A DNA stretch of 35,407 nt. Origin: Spirochaetota bacterium (GTDB taxonomy: Bacteria > Spirochaetota > UBA4802 > UB4802). The stretch is from positions 1 through 35,407 of the forward strand of contig JAOAIH010000027.1 of the NCBI GenBank assembly GCA_026414805.1. The letters run 5' to 3'. Below are positions 6,029 to 28,298 of the stretch, piece after piece; position 1 is the stretch's first letter; each line of letters starts with the position of its first letter. The translations under genes and the position numbers were made by a program. The notes below the pieces were generated by a model. That model saw only the letters and a list, made by a program, of their open reading frames with translations, was not told the DNA's origin and made no database searches.

Positions 6029-6405
6029 ATAATAATACCATTTTCAGGGGGCTGCGAATGCGACAGTAATATAGAGTATACAATGAGGCATACTATCAAC
6101 AGAACAATTATAAAAATAGCTATAATTTTTATTTTATCTTTTGTTGGCAACAATTTAAAATTTCCAACTGCATACCAGTATGAATACAACTTTTCAATAA
6201 TGTGTTTTATTATGCTTTCACTTAAAAACTTCTTTTTTTGCTTTTTTCTCAATGAAAGATCAAATACAGCATCAGAATACAATCCCGGGTCGTCCGGGTT
6301 TGCCAAAAATGAATAACCACAGCGGCATCGCACTTTTACTATTCCAGAATCAATTGGGAAGCGGAGTTTTATACCACAGGAAGGGCATGGTTTGATAATA
6401 TGCAT
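6025..6405 (-). CDS. Zinc-ribbon protein with one membrane helix
   Basis: The product has 126 residues. The N-terminus holds a zinc ribbon with CPSC (7-10) and CRC (27-29), as in MJ0042-type zinc-finger domains. A strongly basic patch LRKKQKKK (52-59) follows. One membrane helix lies at about residues 92-114, and a short tail (SHSQPPENGIII) follows it. The cytoplasmic ribbon and membrane anchor resemble small bacterial proteins of unknown role found next to signalling genes. The start is 9 bases after the HDOD stop, and the stop overlaps the methyltransferase start by 4 bases. Confidence 0.7.
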   Translation of the reverse strand: MHIIKPCPSCGIKLRFPIDSGIVKVRCRCGYSFLANPDDPGLYSDAVFDLSLRKKQKKKFLSESIIKHIIEKLYSYWYAVGNFKLLPTKDKIKIIAIFIIVLLIVCLIVYSILLSHSQPPENGIII

Positions 6406-6414
6406 GTGAAGAAC

Positions 6415-7275
6415 CTAAAGAATATCCTTTGCTCTGGCCATTAATTCGGGAATATCACTATAAAAATTTTCCAGCTGTACATCATGCAATCCTAACAGAT
6501 TGACAGCATCCTGATTCAGCTCATGGTATAATCCATCGCTTCCTATACCAATACCTGCCATCAGGCAAAGTGTATTTGCTATATGAACTATCGATACTAT
6601 CTTTTTATGTTCATCAGGAGCATTCATTGGTTCATGGTGATACCGTACAATAGATTGCAGCACTCCAGGGAATTTCCACTTTATTGTTACCTGTTGCCCA
6701 ATCTGCTGATGGTCAAACCCCATTACTGATTTTTCCGCTTCCTGAAATGTTATATTTTTTTCAGTTACAGTAGCAAGTATTTCTTTAAAGGAGTTCTGTA
6801 CAAAAAGAGCAAGGACAGTTTTCCCAACATCATGAATTATTCCACCTGTGAAGGCAATATCAGCAACCGTTTTGTGGTTGCATTCCGTTGCAATTTTTTT
6901 TGCAAGCATGGCAACTGCAACACCATGTTTCCACAATTCACCCCGCGCCAGGTCATACCCCACAATAACTTTGTTCAATACAGCTTTTGTGGTAGCAAGT
7001 ACAACGATATCTTTAACCTCTTTAAGTCCTAAAATGACGATAGCCCTGTCAATTGATGAGATTTCCTTGCCTTTGCTAAAATATGCTGAATTGCACAGTT
7101 TTAATATATTAGCGGTGATGGCCTGATCTTTAGCAATTTCATCGGCAACTTGCTTGAATGATACATTAGGGTCATTGACCATATTAATTATCTTGCTTAC
7201 CACATCAGGTAAAGAAGGTAACTGATCAACATTCTGAATTATGGACTGAATTCTTTTTTGTATATGTTCATGCAT
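6415..7275 (-). CDS. HDOD-domain signalling protein
   Basis: The 286-residue product is an HDOD protein, a relative of HD phosphohydrolases without a proven enzyme function, common in signalling and chemotaxis clusters. The N-terminal HDOD core shows QLPSLPDVVSKIINMVNDP, then DEIAKDQAITANILKLCNSAYF, SIDRAIVILGLKEVKDI and a kept HD pair in GGIIHDVGK. A second His-Asp-like segment RYHHEPMNAPDEHK lies further on. I chose the ATG at 7273-7275 because GGAG stands 9 bases before it. A TTG nine codons upstream overlaps the cheD stop and is less likely. The gene follows cheD by 23 bases. Confidence 0.85.
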   Translation of the reverse strand: MHEHIQKRIQSIIQNVDQLPSLPDVVSKIINMVNDPNVSFKQVADEIAKDQAITANILKLCNSAYFSKGKEISSIDRAIVILGLKEVKDIVVLATTKAVLNKVIVGYDLARGELWKHGVAVAMLAKKIATECNHKTVADIAFTGGIIHDVGKTVLALFVQNSFKEILATVTEKNITFQEAEKSVMGFDHQQIGQQVTIKWKFPGVLQSIVRYHHEPMNAPDEHKKIVSIVHIANTLCLMAGIGIGSDGLYHELNQDAVNLLGLHDVQLENFYSDIPELMARAKDIL

Positions 7276-7298
7276 AATTATTATCTCCAATCCATCAA

Positions 7299-7778
7299 TC
7301 AAACCTTATAATATATCTGTTCCTGGCCATTGGCCTTCACCTTTAGTCTCCCGTCATCAAGAAAAAAGTCAATAACCCTGCCCGAACTACCACCAACATC
7401 CTCCGCTACAATAGGAATGCCAAATTTTTCCAATGCTTTTCGCGTTGCCTCAATGTTATTTTCGCCAATATTTGCCAAGGTAGTAGTCGATTTAAATTTA
7501 AACATTGATGCGCCACCAGCAATTTTTGCAGACATAAATTCCTTTTTGCAGCCTTTTTTCAACAGTTGCTGCACAAGTATAGGTATTGCTGTATCGGCAT
7601 ACTTTTCAGGGTTGCTATCGCCTGGGTTTTTGGGCAGTAAAATATGGGCAAGACCCCCTATTTTCTTATTTCGCTCATAAATACATATGCCTACACAACT
7701 ACCAAGAATTGTGCGCATGATAGCAGGGTTTTCTGCAACTGCCAGCTGTGCAACACCAATGTTGATAAGATTATCCAT
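7299..7778 (-). CDS. cheD: Chemoreceptor glutamine deamidase CheD
   Basis: The 159-residue product matches CheD, which deamidates glutamines of methyl-accepting chemotaxis proteins and can bind CheC. The catalytic Cys28 is in TILGSCVGICIY and His45 in GGLAHILLP. The segment EKYADTAIPILVQQLLKKG and the C-terminal IVAEDVGGSSGRVIDFFLDDGRL are typical of the family. The cell is therefore probably chemotactic, although no receptor or other che gene is in the window. It is the first gene of a minus-strand cluster and has its own promoter. Only a weak ribosome site is visible. Confidence 0.92.
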   Translation of the reverse strand: MDNLINIGVAQLAVAENPAIMRTILGSCVGICIYERNKKIGGLAHILLPKNPGDSNPEKYADTAIPILVQQLLKKGCKKEFMSAKIAGGASMFKFKSTTTLANIGENNIEATRKALEKFGIPIVAEDVGGSSGRVIDFFLDDGRLKVKANGQEQIYYKV

Positions 7779-7833
7779 CCTTATCTACCAATAGTAAAAA
7801 AATTGCCTTAAGCTAAAATATTATCTTGATAAA

Positions 7834-7861
7834 AAATTACTTCATTATGTATATTTGTCAA
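7834..7861 (-). promoter_or_regulatory. Promoter of the cheD cluster
   Basis: On the minus strand a consensus TTGACA (7856-7861) is followed after 16 bases by TAATTT (7834-7839), about 55 bases before the cheD start. Confidence 0.5.
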
Positions 7862-7907
7862 GGCAAAACATATAATTTGATAAATTAAATTTTGAAAGGC
7901 ATACAAC

Positions 7908-8825
7908 ATGTCGGTTTCCCGCATCAACCACAGCATCCACCATATAGATCCAAACAGCAAAAATCAAACCGGTAATATATATATAAATATTTTAAAAAAT
8001 GAATTTATAATGCTTAATAAAGAAATAATCATTCCAAAAATACCTGTATCACATTTATCGTACGATGACGCATTTCCCATAGTTCAAACTATTATTCCCT
8101 TCATCCCTTTGTTTTTATTACACCACACGTTGCTTAATGAGCGAAACCCTCAACATGAGCTTCATAGCCTTCATTTTGCCACCTTACTTGAAGGTACACT
8201 AATTAATTTTTACCATGTATTACGTATTGATTTTAAATTTGGAGGCGATAGCTCAACAATAATAGAACCCGGGAACAATGACTACTACCCTTCGTACCGA
8301 ACAAGCAGGCTCTATTATAAATCACGGCTTGTACCAACACTTAAAATACCTTCACCACCAATAACTCCAATAAAGCTTATACAATCAATTACTACCGAAT
8401 CAGACCAGTATTTTCATACTTACGCAATGTTTGATGATATTGATACATCTCATATAACCAACAAGTTTATAACAATGTTGCCTGACATCTTTTCAATACC
8501 GGCTCATCTATACCCTTTTATAGTTATGGATTACTATACTGCATGTATGAATATCCCCAACCCTCTGCCTGAAGAACTTACTACCGCAATTACAATTTTT
8601 GAACCGCTATTTTTAGTCATAGCATCGCGCTGTATTCCAATTGAATCAATTATTCAGATAAAAGATGTTATACAAAGTTTCCCCGAGCTTCTTGAAATAA
8701 AAGATCAAGAGTTTATCCCAACCAACAACCTGATCCACATAGCAAAAGAATACTTTGGAAGATATTCGCTCAGCCGCGATGAGCAATGCATGGTGAAAGG
8801 ATGGTGGCAGATTGGTATCAAATAA
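7908..8825 (+). CDS. Hypothetical protein of unusual composition
   Basis: I do not recognise this 305-residue protein. It has no signal peptide, no clear membrane helix pair and no catalytic motif. It is rich in Ile, Pro, His, Thr and Tyr and poor in Gly, Ala and Val. The coding strand has about twice as many C as G over long stretches, unlike neighbouring plus-strand genes. AAAGG lies about 10 bases before the ATG. A hydrophobic segment FPIVQTIIPFIPLFLLHH (about 56-73) might be a buried helix. It overlaps the following lipoprotein gene by 14 bases, so the two are probably made together. No long frame runs on the opposite strand, so the plus reading is the best one. Confidence 0.6.
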   Translation: MSVSRINHSIHHIDPNSKNQTGNIYINILKNEFIMLNKEIIIPKIPVSHLSYDDAFPIVQTIIPFIPLFLLHHTLLNERNPQHELHSLHFATLLEGTLINFYHVLRIDFKFGGDSSTIIEPGNNDYYPSYRTSRLYYKSRLVPTLKIPSPPITPIKLIQSITTESDQYFHTYAMFDDIDTSHITNKFITMLPDIFSIPAHLYPFIVMDYYTACMNIPNPLPEELTTAITIFEPLFLVIASRCIPIESIIQIKDVIQSFPELLEIKDQEFIPTNNLIHIAKEYFGRYSLSRDEQCMVKGWWQIGIK

Positions 8826-16703: not shown

Positions 16704-17708
16704 CTATTTTGCCATACCACAACATGTAGTACTCTTGGCAATTTTTACAATCTTTTGGAAAAATTTTTCTGAGTTACAGAGTACCAGGCCTCCATTATCA
16801 ATCACCATGCTAGTGCGCGTTTCACCCTTAACACTGTACACAAAGGGGAAGACATACAATTCCTGACTGTATAAATAGACGTACATATGTTCACCAGCAT
16901 TTATTATACAGCCATGCTCTGTCATATGGATATCAGTGACATTGGAAAAGCTTTTTATTTGAATTTCCTGCTTTGTTTTTATATGTATGCGTTTAAAATC
17001 CCAGTTGCCAGCACTTCCTTTAATTACATACAGTTCATCATTGTGCAAAAAATGTTTCCATGAGGCTATCCTCACACCCGAAAGCAGAACATCACCTTTG
17101 GTGTTTAAAACCCATAGGTTATAGGTCCCTGCTATGCCTGTAATAACTATAAGTTTATCATCAACGATATCTATATATGCATTATAATACTTCAAGGCTT
17201 GAGGTGGGGCAAACTCAGTTGTACAAAATTTTTTTGTCTGCTCATCTGTGGCAGTATATATAAATAATTCTTTCCCGCATAAGAAATATGTATGCTTTGC
17301 ATGTGCAACTGCTTTAATTGGTTCCTGTGATGGATTATTTATTATAGATTCTTTCTTATTTTTTGAAAGGTACACTACCATACCGTCAGTTGCTACACAT
17401 ACATCCTCGTCTGGATTATACCATACACTCACAACTTCACGGGGAAAGTTGTAGTCATGTTTATGTGGATAAATAGCAGTTAAAAGATTTTCTGAAGAAA
17501 AAATTGCATGAGGTGTCACATATATCTTTTTTGCATCGATCCTCTCTACTTGTGAATACTGGACTAATCCTTCTTTGAATTTTACATATGCACTTTGAGT
17601 AAGACCTTCATTGTACAGTCGTATGCCTTCATCAATGTTTTTTTCCCTGGAACATGAAATGTGAAGTATCACCACACAACATAGAAGAAAACATATAAAT
17701 TTTTTCAT
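16704..17708 (-). CDS. Putative lipoprotein with propeller-like repeats
   Basis: The 334-residue product starts MKKFICFLLCCVVILHISC, a signal peptide with a relaxed lipobox ending at Cys19. Residues 24-52 (EGIRLYNEGLTQSAYVKFKEGL) look like one TPR-type helix pair. The rest is made of short beta-rich units (VVSVWYNPDEDVCVATDGMV, KAVAHAKHTYFLCGKELFIY, IDIVDDKLIVITGIAG), as in a beta-propeller. No enzyme motif is seen. The ATG overlaps the stop of the TPR gene by one base, so they form a unit. It is likely a periplasm- or surface-facing partner of that TPR protein. Confidence 0.65.
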   Translation of the reverse strand: MKKFICFLLCCVVILHISCSREKNIDEGIRLYNEGLTQSAYVKFKEGLVQYSQVERIDAKKIYVTPHAIFSSENLLTAIYPHKHDYNFPREVVSVWYNPDEDVCVATDGMVVYLSKNKKESIINNPSQEPIKAVAHAKHTYFLCGKELFIYTATDEQTKKFCTTEFAPPQALKYYNAYIDIVDDKLIVITGIAGTYNLWVLNTKGDVLLSGVRIASWKHFLHNDELYVIKGSAGNWDFKRIHIKTKQEIQIKSFSNVTDIHMTEHGCIINAGEHMYVYLYSQELYVFPFVYSVKGETRTSMVIDNGGLVLCNSEKFFQKIVKIAKSTTCCGMAK

Positions 17709-19063
17709 CAGGCTTTTTTCCCTTTGATCTTTTCCATAGTTTTCTGCAAAAACCTTCCATCCATTATTTCAATCATCTTATTTGCAGCCTGCGATTTTGC
17801 ATTAATACTGAATTTTGATGTTGTAATATATATACCACTTCGACATTTTTCTTCCAGCATCCTTTGATAAAACGCATTAATCTGGCCTTCAGTAATGTCG
17901 CGGGTTGTTCGTATGAAGTTAATAAGGACAGGGGGTTCGTTAATCCTCTTTACACTGAAGCATTTATACATATATTCATTGGGTGACACTTCCTTTTTAT
18001 ACACAATACTGTAATTAAGCTGGGCAATTATTTCGGTTATTAGTGGCTGCAATTCTGACATAGATGATGTGAATAAAAATTTAAGGTTCTTATTTTCCAG
18101 TATTGCTTTATAATCATCTAATTTAAGTTGTGTACTGCGATAATTTGGATTGATGGCAGCAACTTTTTCCCAGTGATGGACTGCCTCCTGAATTTTATTT
18201 TCCATTTCATAACATTCAGCAAGTAAATAGCGATATGCCAGCCCTTCATCGGTGTTATCCTTTATGTAGGAAAGGCCCTTCTCAAGTTCCTCAATAGCTC
18301 TTGTGTATTCGTCATTATCATAATATATCTGCCCAATTGCATACTGACTTTTTGCAAAATAACGTCTGTCATTACGCGCTTTTGTTAACATGTCTAATGC
18401 GGCAACATAATCCTTCTTCATTTTAAAAATTATCCCCAAATAATAATGGGGTTCATAATTTGTGGGGTTGCTTTCAATAGCTTTAGTAAGAAAATTTTGT
18501 GACAGTTCATAATCTGCAAGATGAAACAAACATATCCCAAGCGGTGCATAAATATCAGCCAAAGCAGGATCCAAGGTTACTGCTTTGAGCAAATAGTCCT
18601 TTGCACCAATGTAATCGTGCTGCCTGTAGAGCACTATGCCAAGCCTGTGATTTGCATTTATGTCATCGGGATTGAACTGTAAAATAATTCTGTACTCCTC
18701 TACCTCCTTTTGCCATTGTTGTGTTTCGTGATACAGATCCGCAAGCATATAATGGATATCCAGCTCATTAACATATTTTTTAAATTCAGGTAGGGCAAGG
18801 ATGCCATTGAGTTCAGAAATAGCCAGAAGGTATTGTTTCTGTTTCACTAAAATTTGTGCTCGTAGGTATCGGGCTGGCACATAATCCTTTTTGCGTTCAA
18901 GAACAAGCTTGACAATTTCGCTTGCCTTTGCAATGTCTCCATTATCAAGGTACTCCTGGGCCTTGCGAACCTTAGCAGGATATTGGTGCGCGCGTATAAC
19001 TAAAAGCAATGCACCTACGATAGATGCACCCACAATAAAAAATGTTATGCTCAATAATGACAT
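17708..19063 (-). CDS. Membrane-anchored TPR protein with degenerate Mrr-like C-terminal domain
   Basis: The product is about 451 residues from the ATG at 19061-19063. A 14-codon-longer form starting at 19105 is possible; neither has a ribosome site, and a TATAAT lies over the upstream ATG, favouring the shorter form. One membrane helix (SITFFIVGASIVGALLLVI) is followed by about eight TPR units (for example NANHRLGIVLYRQHDYIGAK, HYYLGIIFKMKKDYVAALDM). The last 110 residues resemble the Mrr restriction-endonuclease fold: SGIYITTSKFSINAKSQAAN matches the 'GvfvTtsgFt..A' strand and IMDGRFL the final strand. The usual catalytic Asp and Q/E-x-Lys are not visible (LINFIRTT). It may be a binding rather than a cutting domain. 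Confidence 0.7.
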   Translation of the reverse strand: MSLLSITFFIVGASIVGALLLVIRAHQYPAKVRKAQEYLDNGDIAKASEIVKLVLERKKDYVPARYLRAQILVKQKQYLLAISELNGILALPEFKKYVNELDIHYMLADLYHETQQWQKEVEEYRIILQFNPDDINANHRLGIVLYRQHDYIGAKDYLLKAVTLDPALADIYAPLGICLFHLADYELSQNFLTKAIESNPTNYEPHYYLGIIFKMKKDYVAALDMLTKARNDRRYFAKSQYAIGQIYYDNDEYTRAIEELEKGLSYIKDNTDEGLAYRYLLAECYEMENKIQEAVHHWEKVAAINPNYRSTQLKLDDYKAILENKNLKFLFTSSMSELQPLITEIIAQLNYSIVYKKEVSPNEYMYKCFSVKRINEPPVLINFIRTTRDITEGQINAFYQRMLEEKCRSGIYITTSKFSINAKSQAANKMIEIMDGRFLQKTMEKIKGKKA

Positions 19064-19138
19064 AGAATTTATACATTTAAAATTTGATTTTATTACTGCA
19101 TGCATTATATTTTAAGTCAAGCATTATAGTGTACGATA

Positions 19139-22196: not shown

Positions 22197-24353
22197 TCAT
22201 TGTCGCTTAAATAGTGGTATTGCTGTACCAACACCTATAAGCAGTGTTCCAAGCCACACAAGCCATACTAAACGTTTAAATGATATATCAACAATAACAG
22301 AATCTGCAGGTACAGTTGCATTGCGTGGTGGATCAATATGAAGCACAATTATTTTTTCATGTATATCAAAGTCCATTAATGTAACAGTGCGATCAGTACC
22401 CGGTATAATCGCTGGGATAGATTGTTTGTTATTGTTAGCAAACTGAACTCCTGGCTTCACCGTGTATCGTGTTCCCTTATACACAACCATACACTCAGCA
22501 TATACTTTGGCATTCCCCTGCATCATTGCCGCACGGTCAATATCAAAACCATCAAAGCGAATTGTAAGATCAACAAACTGCTGTACAGCACCCTTTGACA
22601 CCATAACTTGCGTGAGCTTGTCATGACCACGAATATATTCAACCGGCGATATATACACATCATATCCAATAGAATAATCAATGTAAGGTTCTCTGAACAG
22701 CTGGTTTGTACGTGTATCAATAAAATACGGAGTCTGTATCACATACGACGAGTTACCATATTCATAGTTAAATACAATGCTAGTCTTTTCAGCTTCTTGT
22801 GTCATCCCTAACAGCTGCAATGTTACCGGAGGAATTGACTTTTTCTCGCCCCGGCTTATCTCTACATGATGCTCAAGAGATTGTGTGTATGAGGTAATAA
22901 TACCCACTATCATAACAGCAACTCCAATATGTGCAATCCGTGCTGGCAGACCAACAGGAATATGTGGTAAAAAACCTTTGATATTAGAAAATATTACAAT
23001 AAACGATAATGTCATCAATGCAAATGGGATAATTGTAATCCTATGACCAATGTAAATAATGCTGGATGCCAATACAGCACATATGCCAATTACTACTGCC
23101 CTAGTAACTTTTGGTGGTTTAATAAATGGTACCAGTATGAGCAATAGTACTACTAAAAATGCAATTGGCCTTGCAATGCTGGTATAGTATGTTTGTTGAA
23201 CCGTTGATGATTGACCTAACATATCAGTGATAAGAGGCATACAGGTGCCAATACAAACGAATGCAGCAAAAAATACTAACACAGCAATACCGTACACAAG
23301 TACATTGTCCCGTGATAGTACACTCGTGCTCAGCTCTTTTCCCTTTGCTTCATTCTTGCGGTAAAACAGCAAACCTATGCTTACCATTATGATAGTAACA
23401 ATAAAAAAAAGCAGATCAGTAAAATGCCCGGCACCACTGAATGAATGCACCGAAAAATCGGAAAGGATTCCGCTGCGGGTTAAAAACGTACCAAATAGTA
23501 TCAATATAAAAGTAACTATCGCCAAAACAAGATTACAACGAATAAGCGCAGAATGCCATTTCTGCAGCAATAATCCATGTAAAAGTGCAATGCTCGTTAG
23601 CCATGGTATCAGTGAGGAGTTTTCAACAGGATCCCATCCCCAATATCCTCCCCAGCCAAGTACTTTATATGCCCAATAGCCACCTAAAAAATTCCCTGCA
23701 CCAAGCAATAAAACCGTTGCAACAACAAAGCGATAAGAGGAAAGCAAAACAGAGTAGTTATTGTATATAAGTGCTATCAGCGCATAGACAAATGGTACCG
23801 CAGCAACTGCATACCCCAAAAACATAACCGGCGGATGAATCACCATCCAAAAATCCTGCAATAGTGGGTTTAGACCATTACCATCGGCAGGTCTTACTCC
23901 CGGTGTAAAACCGGTAACCGTATTCCACACAAGTGTAAATGGATTATTATTAACAATGTGCACAATAAATATAAGCGATACCAGCCCTACAAGTGTAAGC
24001 CTCACTACTTCATAGTTATCCTTTTTTTGTAATACTGCAATACCAGTACACATAATAAAAAAAGCCCACAGTACAAATGAGCCCTCCTGACCTGCCCACA
24101 GTGCTGCAATCCTGTATACCAGTGGCAAATCAACTGAAGAATGGTTATATACATAGGTAAATTCAAACCAGTTGGCAATAAAGCCAGCAATCAGTATTCC
24201 AAGCATTATTCCCACAACAGCAGTTGCACTGATGTAAAAATATTTTGCAAGTTTCAATAATGATCCCTTTTTAAAGGATTGTACTGAGAATACAAGTGAT
24301 GCTGCCACAAGTACAGCACTAAGCCATGGTAAGTGATATACTATAGAATACAT
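22197..24353 (-). CDS. ccmF: Cytochrome c haem lyase subunit CcmF
   Basis: The 718-residue product is a multi-pass membrane protein of the haem-handling family. The WWD motif WGGYWGWDP is at residues 234-242, His173 in VIHPPVMFLG and later His residues are likely haem ligands, and HGLLLQKWHS follows. A large periplasmic segment comes near the C-terminus (about residues 500-690), then a final helix. CcmF takes haem from CcmE and attaches it to apocytochrome. The start overlaps the ccmE stop by one base. It is the last ccm gene of the operon. Confidence 0.93.
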   Translation of the reverse strand: MYSIVYHLPWLSAVLVAASLVFSVQSFKKGSLLKLAKYFYISATAVVGIMLGILIAGFIANWFEFTYVYNHSSVDLPLVYRIAALWAGQEGSFVLWAFFIMCTGIAVLQKKDNYEVVRLTLVGLVSLIFIVHIVNNNPFTLVWNTVTGFTPGVRPADGNGLNPLLQDFWMVIHPPVMFLGYAVAAVPFVYALIALIYNNYSVLLSSYRFVVATVLLLGAGNFLGGYWAYKVLGWGGYWGWDPVENSSLIPWLTSIALLHGLLLQKWHSALIRCNLVLAIVTFILILFGTFLTRSGILSDFSVHSFSGAGHFTDLLFFIVTIIMVSIGLLFYRKNEAKGKELSTSVLSRDNVLVYGIAVLVFFAAFVCIGTCMPLITDMLGQSSTVQQTYYTSIARPIAFLVVLLLILVPFIKPPKVTRAVVIGICAVLASSIIYIGHRITIIPFALMTLSFIVIFSNIKGFLPHIPVGLPARIAHIGVAVMIVGIITSYTQSLEHHVEISRGEKKSIPPVTLQLLGMTQEAEKTSIVFNYEYGNSSYVIQTPYFIDTRTNQLFREPYIDYSIGYDVYISPVEYIRGHDKLTQVMVSKGAVQQFVDLTIRFDGFDIDRAAMMQGNAKVYAECMVVYKGTRYTVKPGVQFANNNKQSIPAIIPGTDRTVTLMDFDIHEKIIVLHIDPPRNATVPADSVIVDISFKRLVWLVWLGTLLIGVGTAIPLFKRQ

Positions 24354-24724
24354 TATTTATTCTCCCTGGTATATTTTGAAGGGCATTTAACTAAAATTTT
24401 ATCAGCTTCAAAGATGTGTGTATCTTTGTTAAATCTGCCAATTGCAACAACACTTGTTGCATGTTCAAAATTAAGCGGTTTTGAACCCCTGTGAATAATG
24501 TGCAAGCGCTGTGAATGTTCATCTTCAATGTAAAATGCAAATCCTTCCGGAGTATTTACAACAGGTATTGATTTTACTAAATTCCCAATGACCTGTACGT
24601 ATGCAGAACCACTTTTTGCCTCTTCAAATGGTACATACGGTGTTAAAAGTCCCTTGAATGAAAAGAGCGCCACACACGCACTTACTACAATAATCACAAT
24701 GATTACAATACTACTTTTTTTCAT
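24353..24724 (-). CDS. ccmE: Haem chaperone CcmE, Cys-type (CxxxY)
   Basis: The 123-residue product has one N-terminal helix (residues 5-22) and a small beta-barrel (YVQVIGNLVKSIPVV, FAFYIEDEHSQRLHIIHRG). Near the end it has KCPSKY, so the haem-binding motif is CxxxY with Cys114 and Tyr118, instead of HxxxY as in E. coli. The Cys form is known from the variant System I* of archaea, Desulfovibrio-like bacteria and some others. It carries haem from the CcmC/D complex to CcmF. It overlaps ccmD by 14 bases and ccmF by 1. Confidence 0.9.
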   Translation of the reverse strand: MKKSSIVIIVIIVVSACVALFSFKGLLTPYVPFEEAKSGSAYVQVIGNLVKSIPVVNTPEGFAFYIEDEHSQRLHIIHRGSKPLNFEHATSVVAIGRFNKDTHIFEADKILVKCPSKYTRENK

Positions 24725-24878
24725 TGAGCCTCTTTTCTAATTTGTTTACTTTAGTATGAAGAAGTATTAAATAACATACAATTCCCAGCCATACCACCAC
24801 CGAAACTGTAAATAGCACCGTAGTTTGTTCAATACCTGTGATTGCATGAGCGATAGTTACCAGATAAAAATTCTTCAT
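24711..24878 (-). CDS. ccmD: Small membrane protein CcmD
   Basis: The minus strand holds a 55-codon frame between ccmC and ccmE. The protein starts MKNFYLVTIAHAITGIEQTT, has one membrane helix (about residues 21-41) and ends with a charged tail KVNKLEKRLNEKK, as CcmD proteins do. GAGGA lies 7 bases before the ATG. The ATG overlaps the ccmC stop by 4 bases, and the stop lies inside the beginning of ccmE. CcmD helps release haem-loaded CcmE from CcmC. The identity rests on position, size and topology, because CcmD sequences are poorly conserved. Confidence 0.8.
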   Translation of the reverse strand: MKNFYLVTIAHAITGIEQTTVLFTVSVVVWLGIVCYLILLHTKVNKLEKRLNEKK

Positions 24879-25528
24879 GATTTATCCTCATTTAGTAAAT
24901 ATTCTAGCATCATCATCCTTGAAAACAAACGTAGTATGATAGCATACAATATGGTAAATGACACCACCGATAAAATTAAAACCAGTCGCATATCAGTATC
25001 AAAATGTATTTGTCCACCTGTATTTATTATGGGGTCAGGATGCAATGATGGATACATTCGTGGAGCAACAAATATCAAAAAGGGTGATGCAACAAATGCA
25101 ATAATCAAATATACACTTTCAAGCATTGGCGCCTGTGCAGGGTTTGTTACTATCTGATGCAAACTGAAATAGGCAATATACATTAACAGCAATAACACAA
25201 TTGAAGTTTGGCGGGGGTCCCAGTTCCAATAACTTCCCCACATAACTTTTGCCCACAGTGAACCTGTTATTACAGTAAGTATACAAAAGAAAAAACCAAT
25301 ATGTACTGAGCTTCGTGCATAATGAATATATACAATCTTCTTTTTCCGCACATACTGTATTGCAGCCCACCCTGCAACAGCAAATGCAAGAGTAGCAACC
25401 CATGCCAATGGCACATGAAGGTACACAATCCTGCTGGTTTCACCCAGTATGGATGCAGGCGGTACCCACATGAAAATACAATACAAAGATAAAAGCATTA
25501 ATAGTGCATCAATTATTATTAAAATCAT
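24875..25528 (-). CDS. ccmC: Haem-handling protein CcmC
   Basis: The 217-residue product has six membrane helices. The WWD motif WGSYWNWDPRQTS is at residues 97-109. His38 in YLHVPLAW is the first haem ligand, and His163 or His175 in the SLHPDPIINTGGQIHFDTD segment is a likely second. It loads haem onto CcmE at the periplasmic face. The stop overlaps the ccmD ATG by 4 bases. Confidence 0.93.
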   Translation of the reverse strand: MILIIIDALLMLLSLYCIFMWVPPASILGETSRIVYLHVPLAWVATLAFAVAGWAAIQYVRKKKIVYIHYARSSVHIGFFFCILTVITGSLWAKVMWGSYWNWDPRQTSIVLLLLMYIAYFSLHQIVTNPAQAPMLESVYLIIAFVASPFLIFVAPRMYPSLHPDPIINTGGQIHFDTDMRLVLILSVVSFTILYAIILRLFSRMMMLEYLLNEDKS

Positions 25529-25558
25529 TGGTACTCCACATTGAAAAAATTCATCCAG

Positions 25559-26221
25559 TTAAAACTGTCGCCATATATGGGGAAACAGCATATATGATAC
25601 CACCCCAAGCAATACCGAAAATGCAAGTAGAAAAAGTATAGCGCTATAAGAAGAAAAAATCACTTTTGAAAAGCACTGTGATGTTGTTTTTATTACCACA
25701 GTTATAATTGGGAGGGTAATAGGAAAAGATAATATGGTAAAAAGTCCTCCACGAGCTTGTGCAATTGCTGTTATTGCCGCAATGATGGTGGTACATACTG
25801 CCAACGCCACGCTTCCTGTCAAAAGTACCAGTGCAAAATCCCTCACGTTAAATACAAAAACATCCATAACAAATAGATACAGCAATCCTGTAACAATGGC
25901 AACTGCAACCATAACTATACAGTTTATTAGTAGTTTGGATACAAATATAATTTCAGCACTGTAGTACATAAGATTGAATAACGCTGTTCCTTCTTCTATT
26001 TCCCTATAAAATATATGTGACAAAGTATTCATACCAGAAAAGAATATAATAACCCACAACAGTATGGAATGTACCACTGGGGTGCCAGCAATACCTCCTG
26101 AAGCAAATCCAATTGATACTGTCACAATAACACTGAACGAAAGTATAAGCGAAATAACAATTCTACTTCTAAAATCAATCTGGATATCTTTTACAATATT
26201 ACGCAAAATTGCTTTTATCAA
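25559..26221 (-). CDS. ccmB: Haem ABC exporter permease CcmB
   Basis: The product is about 220 residues with six membrane helices and the CcmB pattern DFRSRIVISLILSFSVIV, SHIFYREIEEGTALFNLM and LTGSVALAVCTTIIAAIT. I chose the TTG at 26219-26221 because AGGAG stands 8 bases upstream and the length then fits the family. A longer reading from an ATG at 26270-26272 adds 17 residues inside ccmA. It overlaps the end of ccmA. CcmB pairs with CcmA and CcmC to drive release of holo-CcmE. Confidence 0.88.
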   Translation of the reverse strand: MIKAILRNIVKDIQIDFRSRIVISLILSFSVIVTVSIGFASGGIAGTPVVHSILLWVIIFFSGMNTLSHIFYREIEEGTALFNLMYYSAEIIFVSKLLINCIVMVAVAIVTGLLYLFVMDVFVFNVRDFALVLLTGSVALAVCTTIIAAITAIAQARGGLFTILSFPITLPIITVVIKTTSQCFSKVIFSSYSAILFLLAFSVLLGVVSYMLFPHIWRQF

Positions 26222-26810
26222 GCACAATACTCCTATGGCAAAGATTTGCTTCCCTGCTGTCATTTGTTGCAATTATGATAACGGTGAAGGGTTTTATTTC
26301 CTCAATCATTTCAAAAAGGATTTTTTTTGCAGCATCATCTAAGTTTGATCCCGGTTCATCAAGCAATACTACATCCGGCTTTTTTGCCAGTGCCATCGCT
26401 ATCTTACAGCGTTGCACCATGCCAGTTGAGTATTCATGCAAAACTTTATCTTTATGCTTGTAAATATCCAGACGCTTTAAAAGCTCTACAGTGGCATCAT
26501 TTACAGAGCCAAATGCAAACATAATATTCTCTATTGCTGTCAGATTGTTGTAACATTGTATATAGGGTGCAACAATACCTACATGCCGTCTACATACATC
26601 ACTATTGATTCTTTTGTGACCATTGTAATATTCCACATAGCCGCTATCAGGTAGCACAATAGTGCCAATAATTTTAAGCAACGTTGATTTTCCACTGCCG
26701 TTTGGACCCATTATGGCAAGTGATTGCCCTTGTGTAAGCTCAAAGGTAATACCTTTAAACAAGGTATGAGTGTATCGTTTTGTAAGATTAAAAGCTTTTA
26801 TTGTTATCAC
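26199..26810 (-). CDS. ccmA: Haem ABC exporter ATPase CcmA
   Basis: The 203-residue product is an ABC ATPase. Walker A GPNGSGKST is at residues 35-43, the signature is YSTGMVQRC near 121-129, and Walker B is VVLLDEPGSNLD near 141-152. It fits CcmA in length and in its place before ccmB. ATP hydrolysis releases haem-loaded CcmE from CcmC. The ATG follows the cytochrome stop by 6 bases, tying the ABC unit to that gene. Confidence 0.88.
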   Translation of the reverse strand: MITIKAFNLTKRYTHTLFKGITFELTQGQSLAIMGPNGSGKSTLLKIIGTIVLPDSGYVEYYNGHKRINSDVCRRHVGIVAPYIQCYNNLTAIENIMFAFGSVNDATVELLKRLDIYKHKDKVLHEYSTGMVQRCKIAMALAKKPDVVLLDEPGSNLDDAAKKILFEMIEEIKPFTVIIIATNDSREANLCHRSIVLDKSNFA

Positions 26811-26816
26811 TCTTAC

Positions 26817-28175
26817 CTACAGTTGTATATCCTTTTTGGCAGTTGCCATTTCTATGATTGGTAATTTTATAGCCTTGTCTTTCATAATATCATCCACCGT
26901 TTTCTGATCAGCCAATCGGTACAGCAATCGTGCATTAATTGTATATCTACCCTTCAATCCTTTTGGAAGTATTATCGTATTGGTAACTGATTCCTTTGGC
27001 AAAATACGGTTATCAAACAGTATTTCCTTTGCTTTTGCTATGTTTGCCACTGGTTTTCCGGTGCCATCACCAAATATTGTTTTAAAGATTATAGTATTAT
27101 CAGGCAGATAGCCCCTTTTATCAGCTTTTCCTATTGCATAGACCTCTTTACCGTATTGATTCACAATAATTATTTCTAGCCACATCTGCCGTACATCAGT
27201 AAGCCCTGTGGGAAGTTTGTGTCCAGCACCTGTATTGGTAACTGTGACGGCGATAGTTCCTGATGAAAGATCGCGCGCATCAATGATAATGGAAGCTGCA
27301 TTCTTTAAACGCTCCTGGGCCATTTGGCCTTTGACTTTATCATTAAATAATCCTGGAATTACACTGTTGCCGCCTACAAAATAGTGCGTAAAAATATGAT
27401 CGCGCTGTGGGCCCCCAAAAGCAGCAAAGCCAGGATTGTTGGGACGTGGTGTGGAACCGGTAGCTGGCACTCCTGGCCTGTGGTACATATGGCAGCCCTG
27501 ACAGGGAACAGTTGTTTTTTCATCACCGGTATTGTAGGGGCTTTTACTCCACTCCTCAAAGGTGGTTTCAAGCTTTGTGCCATACACAACATGGCGCACA
27601 TCATGGCAGGTGCCGCAAAATGCAGCCTGTGTATGGAATTTTGAATATGCGGCCTGATGCCAATCAGGGTTTGAATCCTTAAACGGCCCACGTTTTACAC
27701 CAGGGTCAGCTTCACCATTGCCCGGCTTATAAGTAAAATGAGCATTATAGTTTTTCTTTGCATCAACAATGACATGGCAATAATCGCACTGTATGCCTTC
27801 TTTTGTGATTTCAGGCAAATCTTTTTCTATTGCAAGCTCTTCAGTCACTGTAAGGGGTTTTCCTGTGATATACCCTACCGGTATATGGCATTTCACGCAG
27901 CTTTCTGCCTCTTCCAGTTCATCTTTGTTAACAGTATTTTGTTTTTTTATATCATTCAAATAAAATGCAGCAAACTCTTTATAAATGATATCCTTTTGTG
28001 CAAGGTTATGCATGGAATTTTTCCACTGCTCATAAATTTCATCATGGCACCCACCGCAAGTTGCCGGGTTAATAAATTGAGCCAATTTGTAATGTGGTGT
28101 GGATTGACAGCCTACAAAGAATGCATACCCTGTTAATGTAATAATGATAATTAAAATTATTACCTTTGACTTCAT
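26817..28175 (-). CDS. Five-haem lipoprotein cytochrome c (cytochrome c554-like)
   Basis: The 452-residue product starts at the ATG at 28173-28175, preceded by GGAGGAGTGTTC. A frame 17 codons longer exists but lacks this support. The signal peptide ends in FFVGC, so Cys23 is lipidated. Five CxxCH haem sites follow: CGGCH (40-44), CVKCH (93-97), CDYCH (130-134), CGTCH (187-191) and CQGCH (225-229). The spacing and text NPATCGGCHDEIYEQW, EGIQCDYCH and VPCQGCHMYHRPG fit the cytochrome c554-like family. The last 150 residues form a haem-free beta domain with GAGHKLPTG, whose His may ligate a haem. It is the first gene of the ccm operon and its likely client. Confidence 0.88.
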   Translation of the reverse strand: MKSKVIILIIIITLTGYAFFVGCQSTPHYKLAQFINPATCGGCHDEIYEQWKNSMHNLAQKDIIYKEFAAFYLNDIKKQNTVNKDELEEAESCVKCHIPVGYITGKPLTVTEELAIEKDLPEITKEGIQCDYCHVIVDAKKNYNAHFTYKPGNGEADPGVKRGPFKDSNPDWHQAAYSKFHTQAAFCGTCHDVRHVVYGTKLETTFEEWSKSPYNTGDEKTTVPCQGCHMYHRPGVPATGSTPRPNNPGFAAFGGPQRDHIFTHYFVGGNSVIPGLFNDKVKGQMAQERLKNAASIIIDARDLSSGTIAVTVTNTGAGHKLPTGLTDVRQMWLEIIIVNQYGKEVYAIGKADKRGYLPDNTIIFKTIFGDGTGKPVANIAKAKEILFDNRILPKESVTNTIILPKGLKGRYTINARLLYRLADQKTVDDIMKDKAIKLPIIEMATAKKDIQL

Positions 28176-28210
28176 GAACACTCCTCCAGGAATGTGATTA
28201 ATTATTATCT

Positions 28211-28298
28211 TCACCCTCACGACCATCTCCCAGTAAAGGTGAGAGGCTGCTTACTCTAAGGACTGTCCTACAAGAAAACCTCAGCACAATAGGTGAGG
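28211..28298. repeat. REP-like element with three short hairpins
   Basis: This gap (28176-28405) holds three inverted repeats: TCTCCC-loop-GG(T)GAGA (28226-28244), AGGAC-T-GTCCT (28259-28269) and CCTCA-loop-TGAGG (28279-28298). It is richer in G+C than other gaps. CCCTCACGACCATCTCCC and AAAGGTGAGAGG resemble the dispersed palindromic units of many bacterial genomes. No second copy lies in the window, so the class is inferred from form only. Confidence 0.4.

Follow-up and report, generated by a model that had tools for sequence, protein, structure and literature searches.

How can a cytochrome c maturation (Ccm) system of the System I type work without CcmH, a component that is essential in model System I? 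Why some System I sets manage without it has been a question since 2006, and it is raised anew by the ccm operon on contig JAOAIH010000027.1 (assembly GCA_026414805.1) of an uncultured spirochaete of the Spirochaetota class UBA4802; the window analyzed here is this whole contig, 35,407 bases long. From profile searches, phylogenies, structure prediction and comparison of genomes across the order and the phylum, we argue that the operon is very probably a CcmH-less System I* machinery, and that the CcmF in the window is of a variant build common to the order and a few other phyla. This build and the loss of CcmH are only partly linked.

Gene content and the search for CcmH

The genes ccmA-B-C-D-E-F lie with their order intact on the minus strand, from 26810 to 22197, with short overlaps or gaps between them. 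Profiles and motifs confirmed what the first-pass annotation had read here, namely one ordered operon, a CcmE with CPSKY, and no ccmG, ccmH or ccmI in the window. All 40 other genomes of the order that encode CcmE have the same operon (in L097 ccmA is lost at a contig end, and in L106 ccmE runs into N), and this recurrence indicates that the arrangement is not due to chance.

Is CcmH absent from the organism as well as from the contig? The source genome is a draft of 3.24 Mb in 186 contigs, 95.6% complete with an estimated contamination of 0.77%, and the Pfam CcmH model gave no match above its cut-off in it; the best, at 11.7 bits on contig C73, is a short membrane protein with no CXXC in its frame and was rejected. 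Because a single draft genome is incomplete, the case for absence rests on the order-wide result. With the Pfam model, none of the order's 46 genomes gave a match, against 26 of 392 genomes drawn evenly across the phylum. As the Pfam matches in the phylum are weak, we built from those 26 sequences a spirochaete-specific CcmH profile, A1, which detects CcmH in 32 of 41 CcmE-bearing Spirochaetota genomes outside the order (25 of the 32 contributed to A1 and 7 are new). In the order itself, A1 has no real match in any of the 46 genomes, of which 41 encode CcmE and 30 have a completeness of 90% or more: 11 genomes gave E-values up to 1, the best being 0.089 across 17 columns. The whole-genome search for ccmH that the first-pass annotation had proposed, made with both profiles, thus did not find the gene in the draft. 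Outside the order, 9 of the 41 CcmE-bearing Spirochaetota have no CcmH by A1 (three of the nine are only 67–80% complete), and the Pfam model, whose sensitivity is limited, found CcmH in 0 of the 8 whole genomes of L005–L012, the completeness of which is not stated.

CcmE type and CcmF lineage

The haem chaperone CcmE (24353..24724, minus strand; PF03100, 49.3 bits) has 123 residues with a single N-terminal hydrophobic stretch, as judged by eye, and its putative haem-binding motif, Cys114-Pro-Ser-Lys-Tyr118, is encoded at 24371..24385 on the minus strand. CcmE was found in 82 of the 392 drawn Spirochaetota genomes, and all 81 readable motifs (that of G195 runs into N) are of the Cys type, reading CPS[KR]Y in 40 of 40 cases within the order and CAS[KR]Y or CTSKY in 40 of 41 outside it. 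The remaining one, CPSKY, belongs to G068, the sole CcmH-bearing spirochaete bin with this motif (contig C154; L014, L044); the contig is probably foreign, because the bin has 8% contamination and its CcmF lies among deltaproteobacterial rows. In a CcmE tree of 127 columns, 92 Cys-type sequences split from six His-type ones with a Shimodaira–Hasegawa-like approximate likelihood ratio (SH-aLRT) support of 99, and the window CcmE lies on the Cys side, not with the HxxxY types, a placement by which the first-pass annotation had proposed to check its reading. Left out of this tree were 12 of 110 rows that were short, duplicate or had the motif cut, among them the His-type L260, whose CcmF sits unresolved near the root of its own tree. 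The CcmE tree also groups the order with Zixibacteria, deltaproteobacterial sequences and Negativicutes (support 96).

Does the cysteine of CcmE mark the loss of CcmH? The first-pass annotation took a CxxxY CcmE without CcmH as the definition of System I*, and this could not be upheld: according to a 2011 review, CcmH accompanies the variant CcmE in about one third of the bacteria that have the latter, and its absence is therefore not characteristic (PMC3601427), and CcmH is present in most of the CcmE-bearing Spirochaetota outside the order. Since the Cys is phylum-wide and CcmH is confined to genomes outside the order, the former does not predict loss of the latter. The set in the window has the features of System I*, with a Cys-type CcmE and CcmA, B, C, E and F all present, and CcmH, the absence of which was the criterion of 2006, is missing from the draft genome; of canonical System I it lacks both CcmH and an HxxxY CcmE, having CPSKY instead. 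Judged by gene content, the operon is a member of System I*. That it extends the range of System I*, as was first proposed, stands at the level of the order and falls for spirochaetes as such: in a 2015 study, a Leptospira CcmH already served as a query (PMC4429474), and therefore Ccm in spirochaetes is not new. Our literature search, with most subscription journals beyond its reach, found no report of a CcmH-less Ccm in spirochaetes.

A better predictor is the lineage of the cytochrome c synthase CcmF (22197..24353, minus strand; PF01578, 109.9 bits, and PF16327, 48.6 bits). In a quick tree of 101 rows, with no bootstrap and some long branches, the order's 41 CcmF rows form one group (SH-aLRT 99) within a 51-row clade (SH-aLRT 99) that also holds three Zixibacteria, two near-identical deltaproteobacterial metagenome-assembled genomes (MAGs), Sporomusa, Pectinatus and three Desulfovibrio-like rows, the CcmE of which are 70, 68 and 59% identical to the D. 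vulgaris fragment 2kct (next best 46%). Within the DNA stretches examined, none of these 51 rows has CcmH. Thirty other spirochaete CcmF rows form a second group (support 100) elsewhere in the tree, joined with a support of only 85 by 12 rows from the phylum of L006 (titled Deltaproteobacteria), Cytobacillus and G068; CcmH lies in the same stretch in 12 of these 14. Forcing all Spirochaetota CcmF together was rejected (log-likelihood lower by 126; approximately unbiased test, p-AU 7.9e-5), the groups for this test having been named after the tree was seen. By these phylogenies, Spirochaetota have two Ccm sets of separate history. CcmF lineage predicts CcmH loss better than the Cys of CcmE, and it does so one-way: the remaining rows mostly, not always, have CcmH, and the nine outside-order genomes without it have their CcmF, where available, in the other clade. 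The first-pass attribution to a likely spirochaete was borne out, the two nearest CcmF being 63 and 61% identical and one of them coming from a Spirochaetota MAG.

How does this set compare with others? A System I* of Desulfovibrio, with ccm genes and without ccmG or ccmH, was reportedly described by Goddard et al. in 2010, as summarized in PMC3601427. It shares with the window a Cys-type CcmE (CPSKY being the commonest motif), the lack of CcmH and CcmG, and a CcmF in the same clade of SH-aLRT 99; the phylum is different, the CcmE do not group together, and only the window CcmF has an extra beta domain and no equivalent of W216, features to which we return below. E. coli System I shares the operon order, the CcmF core and the four haem histidines, but has an HDENY CcmE, both CcmG and CcmH, and a single periplasmic beta domain in CcmF. 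Other Spirochaetota share the phylum and the Cys-type CcmE (mostly CAS[KR]Y), but differ in the CcmH that most of them have, in their separate CcmF clade and in a ccmE-ccmF pair with no ccmB or ccmC detected nearby by profiles built on the window. Methanosarcina acetivorans, as described in PMC9084895, also combines a CxxxY CcmE with the lack of CcmH and CcmI, but it lacks CcmD, has its CcmF split and possesses a CcmG, whereas the window has CcmD and a one-piece CcmF, and no CcmG-like protein was found in its genome.

The extra periplasmic domain of CcmF

The core of the window CcmF is well conserved. It matches the CcmF structure 6zmq (phmmer E 1.1e-45; VIA Z 30.7 across 542 residues, for a model with a mean predicted local distance difference test score, pLDDT, of 72.5), its WWD motif reads WGGYWGWDP at 234, and its haem-ligand histidines are 173, 259, 303 and 475. 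These four are conserved in 91 of 91 CcmF rows; for such column counts L096, L102, L106, L175, L028, L031, L018, L038, L014 and L247 were left out of the 101 rows as cut or duplicate. The canonical periplasmic beta domain (residues 488–572; 22638..22892, minus strand) is followed by an extra one (residues 572–690; 22284..22640, minus strand) that is not in E. coli or Desulfovibrio-like CcmF.

This extra domain, of about 105 residues, occurs in the order, in Zixibacteria, in the two deltaproteobacterial MAGs and in Sporomusa. The insert site corresponds to positions 591 to 607 of E. coli CcmF, a stretch of 17 residues in that species; the median length in the order is 119, and at least 80 residues are found there in 43 of the 48 aligned rows of the 51-row clade against 0 of 43 others (longest 63); the clade rows without the insert are L099, Pectinatus and the three Desulfovibrio-like rows. 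Profile comparison with hhalign indicates homology between the insert and the canonical beta domain of CcmF, with a probability of 94.8 (E 5.5e-8) for the domain of 21 other rows and of 89.7 for the neighboring first beta domain, and five controls (three membrane segments, CcmH and CcmE) at 0.7 or less. Against smaller sets the probability is 92.0 for the deltaproteobacterial draw, 80.4 for His types, 58.9 for Desulfovibrio-like rows and 0.4 for other Spirochaetota, where the window's first domain itself reaches only 14.8; the long periplasmic stretch of these other Spirochaetota is accordingly unsupported as a second copy. An origin of the insert as a fused CcmH or CcmE was rejected (probabilities 0.12 and 0.62).

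What fold does this region adopt? Pfam finds no family in the CcmF periplasmic region of the window, and five families each in one of nine members, the best at E 0.0067. AlphaFold2, run on residues 488–694 with nine sequences, predicts two beta units (mean pLDDT 89.3). Against the PDB, the modeled region matches CcmF 6zmq over 94 residues (Z 11.1), and its insert range matches the System II synthase CcsBA of H. hepaticus in 7s9y (Z 9.3, root-mean-square deviation, rmsd, 3.4, 90 residues, chain 100–306) and in 7s9z (Z 8.1). Foldseek likewise places 7s9z on top (E 2.5e-3), with a poor superposition (rmsd 15.4). Because unrelated alphavirus and flavivirus envelope chains reach Z 6.4–8.2 on the same model, the CcsBA match is suggestive and not proof. 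Rows ranked under CcmF and CcsBA in the fold searches were not treated as relatives. The matched chain range includes Phe240 and Tyr245 of CcsBA, which belong to its beta cap according to a review (PMC10663686). System II shares the WWD/P-His core with the window, and differs, in the account given there, in having no CcmE and in exporting haem itself, whereas the window has CcmABCDE.

A second feature of this CcmF concerns the relay tryptophans. In E. coli, W216 and W253 form the proposed electron path from the transmembrane haem to the outer haem, as the same review has it (PMC10663686). The equivalent of W216 is missing from all 38 rows of the order, all three Zixibacteria and both deltaproteobacterial MAGs (43 of 43), with Val214 in its place in the window (23712..23714, minus strand); all five Negativicutes and Desulfovibrio-like rows have it, as do 43 of 43 others, and Sporomusa combines the extra domain with a retained relay tryptophan. 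W253 is kept everywhere except in 12 of 25 other-spirochaete rows. Loss of a relay tryptophan as a general mark of CcmH loss was therefore rejected, since Desulfovibrio-like rows and Negativicutes keep W216 and the 12 other spirochaetes have lost W253.

Could the second beta domain replace CcmH and CcmI, forming with the first a two-lobed chamber for the apocytochrome as in System II CcsBA? We regard this model as a serious possibility, although not as the favored one. The confinement of the insert to a CcmH-less clade, its homology to the CcmF beta domain at a probability far above the controls, the confident prediction and the 90-residue match to 7s9y would all fit such a chamber. However, the Desulfovibrio-like and Pectinatus rows without the insert also show no CcmH in the sequence examined, the nine outside-order Spirochaetota without CcmH by A1 have, where available, a CcmF of the other clade and no insert, and the viral envelope chains come close to the CcsBA score. 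As Desulfovibrio-like CcmF does without both, the extra domain is not required for independence from CcmH. Somewhat more doubtful is the wider proposal that this CcmF subfamily is a CcmH-independent synthase by means of its doubled beta domain, with a CcsBA-like chamber and the relay tryptophan mostly dropped, so that haem carried by CcmE would be passed to a System II-like synthase; we offer it tentatively.

Other explanations and a proposed route

Is CcmH perhaps present, and either too diverged to be recognized or encoded in the missing 4% of the genome? Spirochaetal CcmH is indeed divergent: where 32 genomes outside the order have it, the Pfam model detects 25, often with scores of 20–30 bits, and misses seven. 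Nonetheless, the profile built on spirochaetes has no real match in any of the 46 order genomes, and at the blastp level no gene other than the ccm genes is conserved beside the operon order-wide, which makes a hidden CcmH very unlikely. This survey took in frames up to 6 kb away, apart from those inside the operon, and considered their 25 largest blastp clusters, with some loci ending at contig edges; replacement of CcmH by an operon neighbor was rejected on it, the best cluster being smpB in 13 of 41 loci, followed by signaling-like frames in 10 loci, mostly on the opposite strand, and by NAD kinase-like and recN-like ones in 9 of 41. A tetratricopeptide repeat (TPR) protein at 17708–19105 was rejected as CcmI, being a generic TPR protein with 31.5 bits on TPR_CcmH_CycH, under the cut-off of 42. 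The spirochaetal CcmH sequences themselves (L044–L069) carry a CxC-G-C or CxC-L-P motif and further cysteines where CXXC would be usual; all 26 rows share three invariant cysteines, and the cysteines could be metal binding.

How, then, are apocytochrome thiols kept reduced? This question of the first-pass annotation is softened, as the search for DsbD proposed there found a DsbD-type protein of 605 residues with a C-terminal CPNC motif in the genome; DsbD_TM matches are found in 43 of the 46 genomes of the order, some of them just short CcdA-like frames. The parallel search for ccmG, made with the Redoxin family only and on a draft, found no CcmG-like protein in the window's genome: the Redoxin matches, named by eye, are Tpx, Bcp and a selenoperoxiredoxin, and two leaderless thioredoxins lie above the TIGR01068 cut-off. 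One might suppose that, for want of a disulfide-making oxidase in the periplasm, apocytochromes never need reducing and CcmH and CcmG can be dispensed with, and the rarity of DsbB, in 4 of 80 CcmE-bearing genomes, would fit this. Yet VKOR is present in 75 of the 80, namely in all 39 genomes outside the order and in 36 of the 41 within it (these counts leave out G068, with 8% contamination, and G214, 67% complete), and in the window's genome it is a 115-residue frame near a contig end. The oxidizing route does not track the loss of CcmH, and this account, rejected as a general rule, is highly improbable. With VKOR so common, a periplasmic oxidase is likely, and DsbD would be the best candidate to oppose it.

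Two further observations concern these redox genes. A short CcdA-like gene adjoins the VKOR gene in G170:C76, G097:C31 and G166:C22, pairing a reductase channel with an oxidase. In L210 (G000:C24), frame 1132–2103 encodes an AhpC-like peroxiredoxin whose likely peroxidatic position is occupied by an in-frame TGA (FV-TGA-ATEV), and single TGAs also occur in Redoxin matches of six other genomes of the order; with such codons in seven genomes, use of selenocysteine by these bacteria is probable.

That a foreign contig brought the operon into a spirochaete bin is barely conceivable: the set is not nearest to that of other Spirochaetota, but estimated contamination is low, and four further genomes of the genus have the same operon with its cytochrome gene upstream and smpB downstream, a recurrence that refutes a foreign origin.

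How would a CcmH-less System I* operate in this spirochaete? By analogy with relatives, CcmABCD would load haem onto Cys114 of CcmE, and CcmF would join this haem to apocytochromes without CcmH or CcmI, using its transmembrane haem (His259/His475), the outer site (His173/His303 and the WWD motif) and the periplasmic beta domains. The DsbD-type protein most likely keeps the apocytochrome thiols reduced, opposing a VKOR-type oxidase. The likely clients include the pentahaem protein encoded just upstream.

Several points count against this interpretation. Absence of CcmH from one draft genome is weak evidence, and 5 of the 46 genomes of the order have no CcmE, four of them making up one whole family. 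In the CcmE tree, the Desulfovibrio-like rows are not placed with the order. The DsbD-type protein scores 137 bits on the NCBIfam DsbD model, under the cut-off of 330, and is nearer to TsoB (162 bits); it is the presence of its gene that suggests a role as apocytochrome reductant. CcmG-like proteins were sought in 10 genomes with Redoxin only, and two of the order, G154 and G020, have a TlpA/CcmG-like protein. Haem on Cys114 and the production of cytochromes are both extrapolated from relatives. As for the family without CcmE (f4: G057, G087, G146 and G219), the lack of a match in 4 of 4 genomes, one of them 66% complete, suggests loss of c-type cytochrome maturation.

Of the remaining genes of the operon, ccmA (26199..26810, minus strand, GTG start) encodes the ATP-binding cassette (ABC) ATPase of the haem-handling complex (PF00005, 95.7 bits), with intact Walker A (GPNGSGKS), LLDEP and signature (STGM) motifs; at 88.8 bits on TIGR01189 (cut-off 131.6) its sequence alone cannot separate it from other ABC ATPases, and its identity as CcmA is taken from its place in the operon. 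The membrane subunit gene ccmB (25559..26272, minus strand; PF03379, 61.2 bits) has an uncertain start, as the listed TTG overlaps ccmA and alternative TTG/ATG starts lie within the first 23 codons. CcmC (24875..25528, minus strand; PF01578, 80.3 bits; TIGR01191, 115.1 bits, cut-off 186), which would deliver haem to CcmE, has the WWD motif WGSYWNWD at residue 97, and ccmD (24711..24878, minus strand) encodes a single helix in 55 residues (TIGR04391, 35.8 bits, cut-off 24). The scores of CcmB, CcmC, CcmE and CcmF exceed the Pfam cut-offs, and their matches to the NCBIfam models fall under the cut-offs, as with divergent members. Elsewhere in the order, about 2.1 kb separates ccmE from ccmF in L111 (G216; 6109–8262), the two being otherwise near-contiguous. 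The TPR protein mentioned above ends in a domain resembling restriction endonucleases (Mrr_cat, 33 bits) and weakly matches the model of FlcA, a spirochaete flagellar collar protein (26 bits, cut-off 300).

The pentahaem c-type cytochrome gene (26817..28226, minus strand; five CXXCH; PF13435, 42.8 bits), with a lipobox-like VGCQS by eye, ends 6 bases upstream of ccmA, and among the loci of the order compared, those of the window's genus and of G210 are the only ones where it adjoins ccmA. A study of methanogenic reactors reports syntrophic butyrate degradation in the uncultured Spirochaetota class UBA4802, and expression of multihaem c-type cytochromes among fatty-acid-degrading Desulfobacterota and Spirochaetota species (PMC7382037).

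In conclusion, two features that have been lumped together, the Cys in CcmE and the loss of CcmH, are now separated, and one large CcmF sublineage shows a visible, testable change, namely a second beta domain together with a missing relay tryptophan. If the doubled beta domain does serve as a CcsBA-like chamber, the System I and System II synthase designs would be points on one evolutionary path, and the role of CcmH could be mapped onto a single domain.

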